This document shows positions 5,051 to 24,982 of a stretch of 64,000 nucleotides of DNA, piece by piece (the stretch's first letter is position 1; every line of letters starts with the position of its first letter). The position numbers were made by a program, and so were the translations under genes. This DNA comes from Streptomyces sp. NBC_01439 (lineage in GTDB: Bacteria; Actinomycetota; Actinomycetes; Streptomycetales; Streptomycetaceae): the NCBI RefSeq assembly GCF_036227605.1, contig NZ_CP109487.1, forward strand, positions 3,980,001 to 4,044,000, given 5' to 3'. The notes below the pieces were generated by a model that saw nothing but the letters and a program-made list of their open reading frames with translations, was not told the origin of the DNA and ran no database searches.

Positions 5051-6751
5051 TCAGACGGCTGCCAGCTCGCCCCGGACGCGGCGGAGCTTCTTCATGGGGC
5101 CGAGCTCGGACTCGTAGACGCGCTTGACGCCGTCGCCGAGGGCGGTCTCGATGGTGCGGATGTCGCGGACGAGACGGGTGAGGCCGCCGGGCTCGACGGA
5201 GGCGGCCTGGTCGGAGCCCCACATCGCGCGGTCGAGGGTGATGTGGCGCTCGACGAAGGTGGCGCCGAGGGCGACGGCGGCGAGGGTGGTCTGCAGGCCC
5301 GTCTCGTGGCCGGAGTAGCCGATCGGGACGTTCGGGTACTCCTCCCGGAGGGTGTTGATCACCCGCAGGTTGAGCTCCTCAGCCTTGGCCGGGTACGTCG
5401 AAGTGGCGTGACAGAGAAGGATGTTGGCGCTGCCGAGGACCTCGACCGCGTGACGGATCTGCTGCGGTGTGGACATGCCGGTGGACAGGACGACGGTGCG
5501 GCCGGTGGCGCGCAGGGCGCGCAGCAGCTCGTCGTCGGTGAGGGAGGCGGAGGCCACCTTGTGGGCGGGGACGTCGAACTTCTCCAGGAAGGCGACGGCC
5601 TCGGTGTCCCACGGGGAGGCGAACCAGTCGATGCCGCGCTTGGCACAGTGATCGTCGATGGCGCGGTACTCGTCCTCGCCGAACTCGACCTTGTGGCGGT
5701 AGTCGATGTAGGTCATCCGGCCCCAGGGGGTGTCGCGTTCGATGTCCCACTGGTCGCGCGGGGTGCAGATCTCCGGGGTGCGCTTCTGGAACTTCACGGC
5801 GTCGCAGCCGGCTTCGGCGGCGGCGTCGATGAGGGCGAAGGCGTTGCCGAGGTCGCCGTTGTGGTTGATGCCGATCTCACCGACGACGTAGACGGGGCGG
5901 CCGGGGCCGGCGGTGCGGGGGCCGAAGCTGCGCAGGCGGGAGTCGGGGGTGGTCGTCATGGCAGGAGGCGTCCTTCGGTGCGGGGGTGTACGGGGCGTAC
6001 GGGGCGTGGGCTGCGGGTCGGGGTGTGCGTCCGGATCCGGGACGGGCCGTTCGGGGTGTGCGTCGGGGCGCGGGTCGAGCAGGGGGGCGAGCAGTCGGGC
6101 GCGGGCCAGGTCGTGCGGGTCGTCGATCTCCAGGACGCGCGCGGGGTCGGTGGCGACGGGGAGGGTGCGGCCGAAGAACCGGTGCCGGGCGCTGCGGAAG
6201 CCCGCGGCGTCCATGGCGTAGGCGGCGCCCGTCTCCAGCAGGTCCTGCGACCGGTCCTGGCGCCGGGGGCGGTGCGCCGCGTCGTGGTTGACGCCGGCCC
6301 CGCAGCCGTCGGCCCCCTCCCGCCAGAGGAACCCGTGGAACGGGGCCACCGTCAGGGCCGAGTCGGCCGACCCGGAGGCGACGGCCACGGCGACCGACTC
6401 GACGTCGGAGGTGGCGAGGAAGGGGCTGGTGCACTGGACGAGGAGGACCACGTCCACGACGAGGGAGTGCAGTTCTTCGAAGGCGGCGAGCGCGTGCAGG
6501 ACCGCGGCCTCGCTGCTCGCGGTGTCGCCGGAGATCGCGGTGGGGCGGGCGATGACGTCGGCCCCGGCGGCGCGGGCGGCGGCGGCGATCGCCTCGGAGT
6601 CGGTGGAGACCACCACGTCGGTGACGGTCGGTGCGGCCCGGCAGGCCAGGACGGCGCGGGCGACGAGCGGGGTGCCGGCGACCTCGGCGAGGTTCTTGCC
6701 GGGGACCCCCTTGGAGCCGCCGCGGGCCGGGATGACGGCGAGGACCCTCAC
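5051..6751 (-). CDS. CMP-nonulosonate synthetase (NeuA) / nonulosonate synthase (NeuB) in one open frame
   Basis: A single 566-aa frame carries two consecutive enzymes of sialic-acid-type sugar synthesis. Residues 1 to about 225 are a NeuA/KdsB-like cytidylyltransferase (VIPARGGSKGVPGKN nucleotide loop, DVVVSTDSE). Then comes a 40-residue Pro/Arg/His-rich linker, and from about 265 a NeuB-type synthase (VGEIGINHNG, AVKFQKRTPE, FASPWDTEA, STGMST, IGYSGHETG, GATFVERHITLDR). There is no stop between them: the junction is open at every codon. A separate NeuB start remains possible at ATG 5959, where GAAGGA lies 11 bases upstream. NeuB ends without the usual SAF (antifreeze-like) domain. The GTG start overlaps the preceding gene's stop by GTGA. 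From memory, homologous separate genes in S. coelicolor are linked to a Kdn-containing teichulosonic acid of the wall. Confidence 0.85.
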   Translation of the reverse strand: MRVLAVIPARGGSKGVPGKNLAEVAGTPLVARAVLACRAAPTVTDVVVSTDSEAIAAAARAAGADVIARPTAISGDTASSEAAVLHALAAFEELHSLVVDVVLLVQCTSPFLATSDVESVAVAVASGSADSALTVAPFHGFLWREGADGCGAGVNHDAAHRPRRQDRSQDLLETGAAYAMDAAGFRSARHRFFGRTLPVATDPARVLEIDDPHDLARARLLAPLLDPRPDAHPERPVPDPDAHPDPQPTPRTPRTPPHRRTPPAMTTTPDSRLRSFGPRTAGPGRPVYVVGEIGINHNGDLGNAFALIDAAAEAGCDAVKFQKRTPEICTPRDQWDIERDTPWGRMTYIDYRHKVEFGEDEYRAIDDHCAKRGIDWFASPWDTEAVAFLEKFDVPAHKVASASLTDDELLRALRATGRTVVLSTGMSTPQQIRHAVEVLGSANILLCHATSTYPAKAEELNLRVINTLREEYPNVPIGYSGHETGLQTTLAAVALGATFVERHITLDRAMWGSDQAASVEPGGLTRLVRDIRTIETALGDGVKRVYESELGPMKKLRRVRGELAAV

Positions 6752-21226: not shown

Positions 21227-21787
21227 ATGAGCGAGCAGCAGCCGAATCCGTACACGAGCGACCCCGCCGGCCAGGGCGGTCAGCCGGGCACGCCCGCCAC
21301 GCCCGGTCAGGGTGACTACAAGTGGGGTCCCGGCGAAGCCAGTTACGGCTACCCGCAGCCCTACCCGACGGCGCCGGCCTACCAGCCGACCATCGGCGGC
21401 GCCGGCTTTCCGACCCCCGCCTACAGCACCGCCGTTCCGGTCGGCGGAGCCGGTCTGTCCCTCGGTGACATCACCGTCGCCGGGGACCAGATCATCACCC
21501 CGTCGGGCAACATGCCGCTCCGGGGCGCGATGTGGAACGCGACCGATTTCTCGCGCACCGAGGAGAAGATCCCGCCGCACGCGATCGTGCTCGCGATCAT
21601 CTTCTTCCTCTTCTGCCTGCTCGGACTGCTCTTCCTGCTGATGAAGCAGAAGACCACCACCGGCTACATCCAGGTCACGGTCACCAGCGGTGGCCGCCAC
21701 CACTCCACGATGATCCCGGCGGTGGACGCGTACACCTACCAGTGGGTGATGTCCCAGGTGAGCTACGCGCGGTCGCTGAGCATGTGA
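21227..21787 (+). CDS. Single-span membrane protein with Pro/Gly/Tyr-rich N-terminus
   Basis: 186-aa protein of unknown function. Residues 1-70 are a low-complexity Pro/Gly/Gln/Tyr segment (PNPYTSDPAGQGG, YGYPQPYPTAPAYQP), followed by VAGDQIITPSGNMPL, a conserved-looking strand, one strong transmembrane helix (AIVLAIIFFLFCLLGLLFLL) and a 45-residue polar tail with ample strand character (TTTGYIQVTVTSGGRHHSTMIP). GGAAGGA eight bases before ATG. The same design recurs at 49276-49947, a common Streptomyces type. Its 3' end overlaps the ECF-recombinase fusion by 25 bp. Confidence 0.75.
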   Translation: MSEQQPNPYTSDPAGQGGQPGTPATPGQGDYKWGPGEASYGYPQPYPTAPAYQPTIGGAGFPTPAYSTAVPVGGAGLSLGDITVAGDQIITPSGNMPLRGAMWNATDFSRTEEKIPPHAIVLAIIFFLFCLLGLLFLLMKQKTTTGYIQVTVTSGGRHHSTMIPAVDAYTYQWVMSQVSYARSLSM

Positions 21788-23775
21788 GGCCCGCGCTCCG
21801 CCGGGCGGGGCCTGAGCCGGCCCAGCGTGTAGCCGCCGGCCGCCGGATCCAGGGAGCGGGTGGCCTCTTTGAAGAGGTACTCGGCCCGCTCGTAGGAGAG
21901 GCGGCGCCGGCCCGTGTCCGGGCAGAGGTCGGCCGGTGCGGGCGTCCGACCCGGTCCGGGCCGCCGGTCAGAGAGGAACACCGGGCCCCGGGTCCGGCCG
22001 GCCAGCAGCCCGGGTAGGAGACGGGCGGTCCCCGAGCGCCAGCTCACCCAGGTGCGGCCGGCCGGAGCCCGGCGGTCCGCGAGGTCGAGGTCCTCGACGT
22101 TCAGTGAGAGGACCGCCTTCACCCCGGCCCCCGACTCGAACAGGAGCCGCCACAGCGTCCGTTCGCGCAGCGGCAGGTCCGGACGGCCGCAGAGCGCGTC
22201 GAGCTGGGCGGGGCCCAGCGCCGGCGCCCGGGAGCCGGTCTCCTCCGCGCGCCGCTCCAGCCCTGCCGCGAGGTCGCCCAGGTCGGCCCAGGAGCCGAAG
22301 GACCGCACGGCCGAGCGGTGCCGGTTCCAGGTCCTGGCCGCCGCCCCGCCCCAGGCCGCCCTGACGACGCCGGCCACCTGGTCGGCCGTCAGGGAGGCCA
22401 GCGGTCGCCGGTCGCCGAGGTCCAGGAGCAGCCTGCGGAGGGTCTGTCCGTAGGAGCGGACCGTCGCCGGGTCCAGCTCGTCGCGGGCGAGGAAGTCGCG
22501 GGCGGCCTCCCCGAGCGTGGGTCCGTGACCGGTCGGGTCCGTGCCGGCGATCGCGTCCGCGCGCCGCTCCAGGAAGGCGCGCTCGGCGGCGTTGCGGGTG
22601 AGTGCTGCCGCCCGGTGGAACTCCAGCCGCGCTTCCTGCTGCCGGTCGAGGCGCACCAGCAGGTCTCCCCTGACGCTCGGCAGGAGGTGGTAGTCGCGCA
22701 GTGCGGGATCGGCGGCCAGGGAGTCGACCAGATCCAGACCGACCCGGGGGCCGTGGGCCATCCCGAGCGACACGGCCCGGTTGAGCTGGACGACCGGTGT
22801 CGGCAGCAGCTGCGCCAAGGCCCCGTACAGGCCGGCAATCCGGGCCCAGTCGGTGTCCTCGGCGGTGGTGGCCTGCGCATGGCACACGGCTATCGCCGCC
22901 TGGAGGAGGTACGGGCCGGGCGACGTACCGCCGACCTGCCGGGCGCGCAGCATGGCGGTGAACCCGCGGCGGATGAGCAGCTGGTCCCAGCGTCCGCGGT
23001 TCTGCTCGTGCAGCTGTACGGGCTCGCCCGACGGGCCGGTGCGGGCGGCCGAGCGGGAGGCCTGGATCTCCATCAGGGCCACGAGTGCGTGCGCCTCGGC
23101 CTCCTGTGGCGCCAGTTCCGCCAGCAGCCGGCCCAGCCGCAGGGCTTCGAGGCAGAGCCCGGGCCGCATCAGGTCGTCGCCCGAGGTCGCCGAGTAACCC
23201 TCGTTGAAGATCAGGTAGATGACCTCCAGGACGGACGAGAGGCGTTCGGGCAGTTCGGCTTCGTCCGGCAGGTCGAAGGGCACGCGCTGCTCGGCCAGCG
23301 TCCGCTTGGCGGCGGCGATGCGCTGGGCGATGGCGGGCCCGGTGACGAGGAAGGCGCGGGCGATCTCCTCGGCCGTCAGGCCGCCGAGCAGCCGGAGCGT
23401 CAGTGCGGCCCTGGCCCCGGTCGGCAGGACGGGGTGGCAGGAGATGAGCATCAGCCGCAGGACGTCGTCCTGTTCGGGTTCCCGCTGCTGTTCCAGCTCG
23501 TGGGCGAGCTGTTCCTGCTTGTGCGCCAGCCGCCGGTCGCGCCGGATGTGGTCGACCGCCCGCCGTTTGGCCGTGGTCGTCAGCCAGGCGCCGGGGTTGT
23601 CGGGGACGCCCGTGACGGGCCACTGTTCGAGTGCGGCGACGAGCGCGTCCTGGGCCAGTTCCTCGGCGAGGCCGACGTCGTGGACCATCCGCGTGAGCCC
23701 GGCGATGATCTTCGCGGACTCGAGCTTCCAGACGGCGTCGATCGTGCGATGGGTGTCCGGCACGGGCACGATCAC
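21763..23775 (-). CDS. ECF42-like sigma factor fused to a degenerate tyrosine-recombinase domain
   Basis: 670-aa protein. Residues 1 to about 405 are an ECF42-type sigma factor: THRTIDAVWKLESAKIIAGL, region 2 up to TAKRRAVDHIRRDRR, region 4 GLTAEEIARAFLVTGPAIAQRI, then the long helical/TPR-like extension (YLIFNEGYSATSG to AERAFLERRADA). From about 415 the same frame continues into a phage-integrase-like protein: core-binding DPATVRSYGQTLRRLLLDLG and ARTWNRHRSAVRSFGSWA, then catalytic-domain LRERTLWRLLFESGAGVKAVLSL, VEDLDLADRR, TARLLPGLLAGRTRGPVFLSDRRP and RLSYERAEYLFKEA. The usual catalytic Arg after GA is replaced, the HLRHS box is reduced to TLGRLRPRP and the Tyr end is missing. It lies 60 bp after the DGPF/YCII gene, the hallmark partner of ECF42. 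The start is one of three in-frame GTGs (23775, 23769, 23763). Confidence 0.85.
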   Translation of the reverse strand: MIVPVPDTHRTIDAVWKLESAKIIAGLTRMVHDVGLAEELAQDALVAALEQWPVTGVPDNPGAWLTTTAKRRAVDHIRRDRRLAHKQEQLAHELEQQREPEQDDVLRLMLISCHPVLPTGARAALTLRLLGGLTAEEIARAFLVTGPAIAQRIAAAKRTLAEQRVPFDLPDEAELPERLSSVLEVIYLIFNEGYSATSGDDLMRPGLCLEALRLGRLLAELAPQEAEAHALVALMEIQASRSAARTGPSGEPVQLHEQNRGRWDQLLIRRGFTAMLRARQVGGTSPGPYLLQAAIAVCHAQATTAEDTDWARIAGLYGALAQLLPTPVVQLNRAVSLGMAHGPRVGLDLVDSLAADPALRDYHLLPSVRGDLLVRLDRQQEARLEFHRAAALTRNAAERAFLERRADAIAGTDPTGHGPTLGEAARDFLARDELDPATVRSYGQTLRRLLLDLGDRRPLASLTADQVAGVVRAAWGGAAARTWNRHRSAVRSFGSWADLGDLAAGLERRAEETGSRAPALGPAQLDALCGRPDLPLRERTLWRLLFESGAGVKAVLSLNVEDLDLADRRAPAGRTWVSWRSGTARLLPGLLAGRTRGPVFLSDRRPGPGRTPAPADLCPDTGRRRLSYERAEYLFKEATRSLDPAAGGYTLGRLRPRPAERGPHMLSDRA
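21787..21813 (+). terminator. Probable terminator of the 21227-21787 gene
   Basis: AGGCCCGC ... GCGGGGCCT imperfect stem immediately after the TGA at 21785. It also encodes, on the minus strand, the last residues of the truncated recombinase domain. Confidence 0.45.
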
Positions 23776-23837: not shown

Positions 23838-24161
23838 TCAGGGGCCGAAGACCTGCTGGACCACGCTCTCGCCGTCACCGACGATCCTGCGGAAGCGGCG
23901 GGCCAGTTCGATCGCCTCCTCCTTGGAGCGGACCTCGATCAGGGCGAAACCGGCCACGGCCTCCTTGGCCTCGGCGAACGGCCCGTCCGTCACGGTGATC
24001 TCGTCCCCGAGCGACGTCACCAGGACACCGCCCGGCTCCAGGCCGCCGGTCGCCAACAGGACACCGGCCGCCGACAGTTCCTCGATGAACCGGCCCATCT
24101 CCGCGTACAGGTTCTCGTCGGGGGCGGTGTCGGAAGGCCGGGTGGTCATCAGGTAGCGCAT
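23838..24161 (-). CDS. YCII-related (DGPF) domain protein
   Basis: 107-aa cytoplasmic protein of the YciI/YCII-related (DGPF) family. It shows MRYLMTTRPSDTAPDE, GRFIEELSAAGVLLATGGL, the diagnostic TDGPFAEAKEAVAGFALIEVRSKEEAIELARRF, and a C-terminal IVGDGESVVQQVFGP. Family knowledge: DGPF genes sit beside ECF42 sigma genes and are their regulatory targets; their biochemical role is unknown. A strong GAGGAGAGGGA precedes the ATG. Its promoter region is the left half of a mirror-image intergenic repeat (24162-24304). Likely in one operon with the ECF42 fusion. Confidence 0.88.
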   Translation of the reverse strand: MRYLMTTRPSDTAPDENLYAEMGRFIEELSAAGVLLATGGLEPGGVLVTSLGDEITVTDGPFAEAKEAVAGFALIEVRSKEEAIELARRFRRIVGDGESVVQQVFGP

Positions 24162-24304
24162 GGGGTCCCTCTCCTCGGTCGTGCGGTGCTTGCGACACCA
24201 CGTCGAACGGGGCGGTGTGACAGGGAACGGTCGCCGTTCCCTGTCACACCGCCGGATCGACGTGTCGGCGAGAACCGGAAACGACCGAGCAGAGAGGCAC
24301 CCAC
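24162..24304. promoter_or_regulatory. Mirror-image divergent promoter region with 43-bp palindrome
   Basis: The whole space between the divergent YCII and DUF998 genes is an inverted duplication. Its centre is a perfect stem of 20 bp (GGCGGTGTGACAGGGAACGG, 24211-24230) with a TCG loop and its complement at 24234-24253. Outside it both arms carry TCGACG, exactly 19 bases, then CGACCGAG-AGAG and a start codon about 20 bases on. The conserved TGTCG and CGACC elements resemble what is known of ECF42 target promoters, so both genes probably answer to the same sigma factor. Confidence 0.7.
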
Positions 24305-24982
24305 ATGACCACCACCACAGCCGCCACCACCACCGCCCCCGCGACCCGATCCCGCACCCGGGCCGCCACCCGCTCCCTGCTCGCCTGTGCGGTCGCGGCG
24401 ACCCCGCTGTGGGTGGCCGTGGCCCTGCCCCAGGCCGCCCTCCGCGAGGGCTTCGACATCACCCGCCACCCGCTGAGCGCCCTGAGCAACGGATCCCTGG
24501 GGTGGCTCCAGATCACCAACTTCCTGATCGTCGGAGTGCTGCTCGCCGTGGGAGCGACCGGCCTGCGCCGGGCCCTGCACGGCGGACCCGGAGGCATCTG
24601 GGCGCCGCGACTGGTGCGCGCCGCCGGTGTCGGCATGATCGCCGCGGGCGCGTTCGTCATGGACCCGGCCGACGGCTTCCCCGCGGGTACCCCCTACGGG
24701 CAGCCCGCCGCCCTCACCTGGCACAGCTACGCCCACTTCGCCGCGGGATCGATCACCTTCCTCTCGCTGATCGCCGCCTGCTACGTCCTGGGCCGTCGCT
24801 TCGGCCGCGCCGGTGAGCGTCGGTACGCCCTGCTCGCCCGGGTCGGCGGCACCGCCCTCCTGCTCGGCAACGGCTGGGCCATGGGCGGCGGCAGGGCCGG
24901 CACGCTCACCCTGGCCGTCGGCGTGATCACCGCGATGCTCTCGATCTCCTTGATCGCGAACCGCTTCCGCAGTGCCCGCTGA
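24305..24982 (+). CDS. DUF998 family membrane protein
   Basis: 225-aa integral membrane protein with about six helices, DUF998 type. After a Thr/Ala-rich N-terminus come LLACAVAATPLWVAVALPQA, the family-typical REGFDITRHPLSALSNGSLGWLQITNF (including HPLS), MIAAGAFVMDPADGFPAG, HSYAHFAAGSITFLSLIAACYVL and LLLGNGWAM. The family's role is unknown. It is transcribed divergently from the YCII/ECF42 operon from a near-identical promoter arm, which places it in the presumed ECF42 regulon. Confidence 0.82.
   Translation: MTTTTAATTTAPATRSRTRAATRSLLACAVAATPLWVAVALPQAALREGFDITRHPLSALSNGSLGWLQITNFLIVGVLLAVGATGLRRALHGGPGGIWAPRLVRAAGVGMIAAGAFVMDPADGFPAGTPYGQPAALTWHSYAHFAAGSITFLSLIAACYVLGRRFGRAGERRYALLARVGGTALLLGNGWAMGGGRAGTLTLAVGVITAMLSISLIANRFRSAR

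Follow-up and report, generated by a model that had tools for sequence, protein, structure and literature searches.

Sigma factors define bacterial promoters. In the ECF42 group, which includes Sven_0747, Sven_4377 and Sven_7131, P. putida ECF-10 and S. meliloti RpoE10, sigma regions 2 and 4 are followed by a DUF6596/TPR-like extension, and a YCII-type gene is found directly upstream of the sigma gene. In the unfused ECF42 operons compared here, the promoter consists of TGTCGA, 17 nt and then CGAC or CGTC, with the GTCGA form present in 51 of 64. The promoters listed for S. meliloti RpoE10 targets in the part of PMC6180224 available to us fit a TGTCGA-type pattern, the spacing being our own reading.

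The gene described here lies in a window of 64,000 nucleotides (the whole stretch of Streptomyces DNA analysed) and has the same sigma regions, extension and upstream YCII-type gene as described ECF42 systems, but its product differs from them in an additional recombinase-derived tail, and the clade to which it belongs lacks the TGTCGA -35 element and has a decayed region-4 recognition helix (Table 1). It is fairly likely that in this system -35 recognition has been handed to a domesticated tyrosine recombinase, and that the promoter consists of a half-site once used in recombination, followed by an ECF -10 element.

Table 1. Features of the fused gene and of its divergent promoter region (positions in the window).
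Feature	Position	Strand	Basis or remark
Fused gene, ECF42 sigma factor plus recombinase-derived tail	21763..23763	-	666 aa, GTG start
Truncated recombinase catalytic region and C-terminus	21766..22251	-	alignment; boundary approximate
Recombinase core-binding domain (Phage_int_SAM_1)	22285..22479	-	Pfam, residues 440-504
DUF6596, the ECF42 C-terminal extension	22942..23244	-	Pfam, residues 185-285
Sigma region 4 (Sigma70_r4_2)	23296..23454	-	Pfam; recognition helix decayed in window clade
Sigma region 2 (Sigma70_r2)	23530..23697	-	Pfam, residues 34-89 of P0001
YCII (DGPF-type) gene	23838..24161	-	PF03795 above cut-off; 74 bp before sigma gene
CGACG, part of ECF42-like -10 element of YCII-sigma operon	24201..24205	-	sequence
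Half-site TTCCCTGTCACA facing YCII-sigma operon, at -35 position	24216..24227	-	sequence match
Second half-site, inverted, facing DUF998 gene	24237..24248	+	sequence match
CGACG, -10-like element on DUF998 side	24258..24262	+	sequence
Divergent gene, DUF998 family	24305..24982	+	Pfam

The minus-strand reading frame 23796-21763 is uninterrupted from end to end, and the database form of the protein (P0002, 666 aa) begins at the GTG at 23763. Four Pfam domains are each matched above cut-off in the order Sigma70_r2, Sigma70_r4_2, DUF6596 and Phage_int_SAM_1, with DUF6596 scoring 121.5 bits against a cut-off of 27, and TPR models match weakly. The preliminary description had read this single frame as an ECF42 sigma factor joined to a core-binding domain and part of a catalytic domain, and the open frame, the Pfam domains and the alignment of relatives all agree with it; the tail was also rightly placed past the TPR-like end at which an ordinary ECF42 protein stops, since about 255 extra residues follow DUF6596 beyond the TPR region. 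In profile searches, the recombinase assignment held for the core-binding domain (PF02899, 31.6 bits against a cut-off of 22.3), while the catalytic-domain model PF00589 gave no match on the fused gene; elsewhere in the 9.58-Mb genome, the same model was listed at 17 places. Only when aligned to intact relatives can the partial catalytic region be recognised, and the tail comprises the core-binding domain and the catalytic domain up to box II. Third-position GC is 0.93 in the tail frame and 0.94 in the sigma part. A sequence search with the tail returned no relatives among solved structures at E up to 1, and a profile of the whole protein matched only sigma factors there.

Searching with the tail region yielded 629 proteins at E up to 1e-3 among 8000 scored candidates. 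Among the 120 tail relatives listed, 112 are at least 600 aa long (111 besides the window's own protein) and align over their whole length, with no sign of the stop or frameshift near 22530 that had been considered a possible flaw of the junction. Because at least 111 other long, near-full-length proteins have the same fusion, which the preliminary description had proposed to look for in other genomes, an assembly error or junction frameshift is ruled out, and the ECF42-recombinase fusion is confirmed as real and no accident of one genome. In the whole-length alignment of 113 sequences of at least 600 aa, two of which are the window's own, mean column conservation is 0.82-0.83 in the tail and 0.84 in the sigma part, and within the partial catalytic region conservation reaches 98% or more at 58 of 150 positions. 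The majority consensus of this alignment ends GYTLRQLKPRP, and the last residues of the window protein are unlike those of most relatives. At its 3' end, the fused gene overlaps the end of a convergent gene (21227-21787) by 25 bp (window 21763-21787).

In the window tail, Gly occupies both the Arg I and the box II His positions and the box II Arg is kept, while Lys, the second His and Tyr are missing, the protein ending after box II. The free-standing relatives L164, L166 and L167 keep all six catalytic positions. From these lost residues the window tail is predicted to be catalytically dead, and an active recombinase is ruled out for the window on the same ground. Among the other fused proteins, L159 (genome G788) retains Arg I, His, Arg, His and Tyr; lysines are present in its hairpin region, and its catalytic domain is above the Pfam cut-off (scored as L183). 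A long catalytic domain is also found in 19 further fused entries, some of them from one genome fetched twice, in which Tyr is replaced by Phe (17) or Leu (2) and Arg I by Pro. The Tyr region is absent from 49 of 69 fused entries, and Arg I is still present in two of these (L048, L121). Genome G788 holds two fused frames (contigs C62 and C295), the catalytically complete one accompanied by direct half-sites and the other by an inverted pair upstream.

Most of the evidence for the role of the fusion sits in the DNA upstream of the operon, beyond the view of the preliminary description. The YCII gene is present at 60 of 60 fused loci, and the named fused loci have a common (G/A)TTCCCTGTCACAT upstream of it, often as an inverted pair. 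Searched for within 450 nt at up to two mismatches, the 12-bp half-site TTCCCTGTCACA precedes 59 of 60 fused operons, compared with 0.95 of 60 in a shuffled-sequence control under that mismatch limit. In the one exception, G004, the dyad adjoins the DUF998 gene and is separated from YCII by 2.9 kb, as an insertion of DNA might leave it. At unfused ECF42 operons the half-site was found in none of 64 at up to one mismatch and in 3 of 64 at up to two. In the window genome the exact 12-mer occurs twice, both times in this divergent promoter, with ten one-mismatch sites elsewhere (the reversed control pattern gave 14 matches).

The fused loci sampled numbered 61 (the window, 16 named among 80, four from another fetch and 40 chosen from listings), from which the duplicate L247, identical to L047, was removed; they fall into two classes, assigned from promoters alone, with L234 fitting neither. 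In class A (22 loci), the GTCGA -35 element is kept and the half-sites lie farther upstream, as two in direct orientation at 17 loci and one at 5. The nearer half-site is 41-42 bp (7 loci) or 52-55 bp (10 loci) from the -35 element, about one helical turn apart; these distances refer to the 17 loci with a scripted -35, four loci having given none and L257 (65) having been dropped because the pattern had matched beside the -10. Class A promoters (e.g. L184, L241 and L264) also have a conserved CCWGGTC between half-site and -35. In class B (37 loci including the window), the normal -35 element is gone and the half-site occupies its position, starting 21-22 nt before CGACG in 35 of 35 loci with a plus arm, and at the same distance on the other strand in 26 of 31 loci with a minus arm. 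The canonical GTCGA promoter was found in 22/22 class A loci and 2/37 class B loci, both of the latter being off-promoter matches, and the TGTCGA-type -35 is absent from the window promoter, which is therefore that of an ECF42 derivative with a changed promoter, and from 35 of 37 class B loci. Of the class B loci, 28 of 37 encode a DUF998 relative in the fetched stretch, as do 14 of 22 in class A; the orientation of this gene was read in the window.

Sigma region 4 differs between the same classes. In region 4.2, V150 and R151 are invariant in 64/64 unfused and 22/22 class A proteins, whereas in class B residue 150 is Ala in 37/37 and residue 151 is Arg in one of 37, Lys in two, and A, G, D, E, T, S or Q in the rest. 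In the window protein the invariant Arg is replaced by Ala (residue 151 of P0002), and Arg 151 appears once in the 113-sequence set. At the two class B loci with Lys 151, L046 and L088, the arm towards the other gene is the only one present. Averaged over the recognition helix, entropy is 0.35 bits in unfused, 0.38 in class A and 1.12 in class B proteins, while the values for region 2 are 0.71, 0.28 and 0.52 bits, respectively. On the trees the class B switch looks like one event, after which residue 151 would have diverged in many ways, and the link between promoter and Arg 151 therefore has one independent instance.

The half-site is also found beside free-standing relatives of the tail (family f17), where 21 of 26 have it as an inverted repeat that always precedes the recombinase gene; its arms, matched at up to five mismatches in total, are separated by 7 bp in 9 loci and by 6 bp in 12, and no such repeat was found in the other 5 of 26. 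Core sites of tyrosine recombinases are built in this way, as inverted repeats spaced by 6-7 bp. Given its position upstream of 21 of these 26 genes, the TTCCCTGTCACA repeat probably represents the core site of the ancestral recombinase. The two arms are farther apart in class B promoters, at 8 bp (19 loci), 9 bp (8) or 10 bp (2), than in the free-standing sites. A sigma gene was looked for in the 12-18 kb fetched around the six closest free-standing relatives, and none was found. When eight genomes were scanned at up to one mismatch, all exact sites but one, in G872, were beside such a recombinase or belonged to a fused operon; the second place in G788 is its second fused frame. Another 24 loci, most of them more distant, were compared: three have the half-site inverted repeat and five an inverted repeat of other sequence with a 7-bp spacer upstream; the remaining 16 showed nothing comparable upstream, bar an 8-bp-spaced repeat in L146, and the free search for inverted repeats also returned downstream or other-spacer repeats in several loci. 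Inverted repeats of other sequence with 7-bp spacers lie upstream in L132, L026, L033, L037, L038 and L223, which belong to other recombinase groups, and this comparison suggests that each recombinase group may have its own core site. In six loci (L182, L206, L209, L215, L134 and L136), a third, direct half-site is placed 73-78 bp beyond the inverted pair, towards the recombinase gene, by which the free-standing recombinases perhaps regulate themselves.

Across 35 carrier genomes, the fused operon accounts for 51 of 55 exact matches to RTTCCCTGTCACAY, including the displaced G004 pair (our own count); four of the 35 carriers have no exact RTTCCCTGTCACAY, and a reversed control had no match. 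Because 51 of 55 matches sit there, the system would act essentially on one locus, and since half-site/-10 units are usually present as two back to back, the holoenzyme would have essentially one target locus in most genomes examined. Of the four remaining matches, two make up a dyad in G697; this dyad (L297, about 5205-5236) is perfect and lies about 0.7 kb before a second, unfused ECF42-YCII operon, whose sigma part is 41% identical, and cross-regulation is possible. In 35 genomes picked as non-carriers there were 3 RTTCCCTGTCACAY matches. One (G679) is at a decayed fused operon (L302, 4810-6212), with YCII in two frames, sigma factor and tail partly matched and the half-sites kept; the other two are in the same context as an extra match in G279. 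A sequence, ATGACGRTTCCCTGTCACATCCGG, is common to three genomes (L298, L300 and L301) in another context, unrelated to the fused operon.

The fused frame is present in at least 16 of 295 genomes of the genus, the prevalence counts being lower bounds because the genome searches scored part of the candidates only, and named carriers belong to the Streptomycetaceae, Streptosporangiaceae, Micromonosporaceae and Pseudonocardiaceae. All 61 fused entries form one side of a branch (support 100/98) in a tree of 90 tails, from which identical sequences, second frames of one locus and the broken or misframed L025, L032, L034, L138, L139 and L141 were left out. L139 had been taken as another long fusion and was dropped, its N-terminal part having the look of a non-coding open frame. 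The 67 fused entries in a tree of 131 sigma parts likewise group together (98), beside four unfused Actinomadura proteins. Both trees fit a single old fusion event for the sampled forms, kept across four actinobacterial families, and the recombinase was probably captured by ECF42 once, in an actinobacterial lineage near the Streptosporangiaceae. Comparison with the outgroup identifies the normal -35 element and Arg 151 as the earlier condition. Class B and G004 correspond to a 38-entry clade of the tail tree (100/96), as matched by locus numbers. The placement of class A differs between the trees: in the tail tree L159 and the long tails branch first, while in the sigma tree A and B are sister clades, which gives no support to class A as a stage towards B. 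Living relatives appear to keep different states, namely the apparently intact L159, long inactivated tails, short tails with upstream sites, and the putative -35 takeover.

These comparisons document the fusion, the lost catalytic residues, the common half-site, the promoter change and the decay of the region-4 helix; from them we infer binding of the half-site by the tail, in place of the region-4 contacts. In the proposed mechanism, an ECF42 sigma factor would have captured a tyrosine recombinase, which lost catalysis but retained recognition of TTCCCTGTCACA, the core half-site that it once used. In class A, where the promoter is of the normal ECF42 type, the tail would act much as a built-in activator by binding the half-sites farther upstream. 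In class B, with the half-site at -35, the tail would supply -35 recognition, releasing sigma region 4 from this job while region 2 would still read the -10. The window protein would mainly control its own operon and the DUF998 neighbour, because the exact half-site occurs in the window genome only in their divergent promoter. We give a probability of roughly 70% to this takeover of -35 recognition by the recombinase-derived tail, reading the half-site in place of region 4; it counts against the tail as reader that truncation has removed half of the clamp that grips DNA in a recombinase. One of the two possibilities raised in the preliminary description was a DNA-binding extension retargeting the sigma factor, and the comparison favours it, as the half-site tracks the fusion and lies at -35 in the window clade.

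It could instead be that region 4 has changed specificity and reads TTCCCTG as a new -35, with the tail serving stability or autoinhibition. The half-site does start at the right distance from the -10, and region 4.2 did change, through V150 to Ala in all 37 class B proteins. However, class B proteins vary in the recognition helix whereas their site stays the same, and because a constant site is unlikely to be read by a helix varying at an otherwise invariant position, the tail appears the likelier reader. The site is moreover 12 bp long, and it also occurs 41-55 bp upstream of the class A -35 and beside recombinases without a sigma gene, all of which makes this reading unlikely. A separate regulator that reads the half-site, leaving the tail as a protein-binding or autoinhibitory extension, would agree with the view, taken in the part of PMC8999054 available to us, that ECF42 extensions work by protein contact. 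Yet fused operons and free-standing recombinases both have the site, and the recombinase domain is their common part, while unfused operons lack it at up to one mismatch; we regard such a regulator as quite improbable.

The preliminary description had also offered the scar of a gene fusion, and the loss of catalytic residues and of the C-terminal part could be expected of a neutral scar. In 12 pairs compared by a simple counting method, dN/dS is 0.23-0.63 in the tail and 0.13-0.47 in the sigma part, the tail value being the higher in 11 of 12, which again leans towards a scar. The tail values themselves, together with the near-invariant 58 of 150 positions of the partial catalytic region, nevertheless point to purifying selection on the tail, and with a single old event kept in four actinobacterial families a neutral scar is very improbable.

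If the tail has indeed taken over -35 recognition, a natural, fused foreign DNA-binding domain that replaces -35 reading, with other states of the fused family still alive in related genomes, would show how promoter specificity can be rebuilt. It would also provide a model, open to testing, of how RNA polymerase can be directed to a single locus, and would exemplify the joint domestication of a recombinase and its DNA site. In a literature search, no title or abstract described an ECF42-recombinase fusion, although key ECF42 and ECF-classification papers could mention one; the word 'integrase' is absent from the available parts of PMC8999054, PMC8103513, PMC11256431 and PMC9205884.

The protein is an ECF42 variant, and its mechanism, if proved, would be of a new kind. 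Tyrosine recombinases (XerC/XerD-like, including L164, L166 and L167, which are 57-59% identical to the long tail of L125) have the same core-binding fold and the same DNA half-site, and the sharing of this half-site with free-standing relatives points indirectly to possible binding of the core half-site by the tail. They differ in that the window tail is without Arg I, the box II His and Tyr, ends after box II and is joined to a sigma factor. In the dCas12f-sigma E system, a dead, mobile-element-derived DNA-targeting protein brings a sigma factor to its promoter, but there the target is picked by guide RNA in a separate protein, as opposed to the fused protein domain found here. Domesticated Crypton recombinases are transposon-derived eukaryotic genes, and are like the present case in that a mobile-element tyrosine recombinase was taken over by its host, although in that system no sigma factor is involved.
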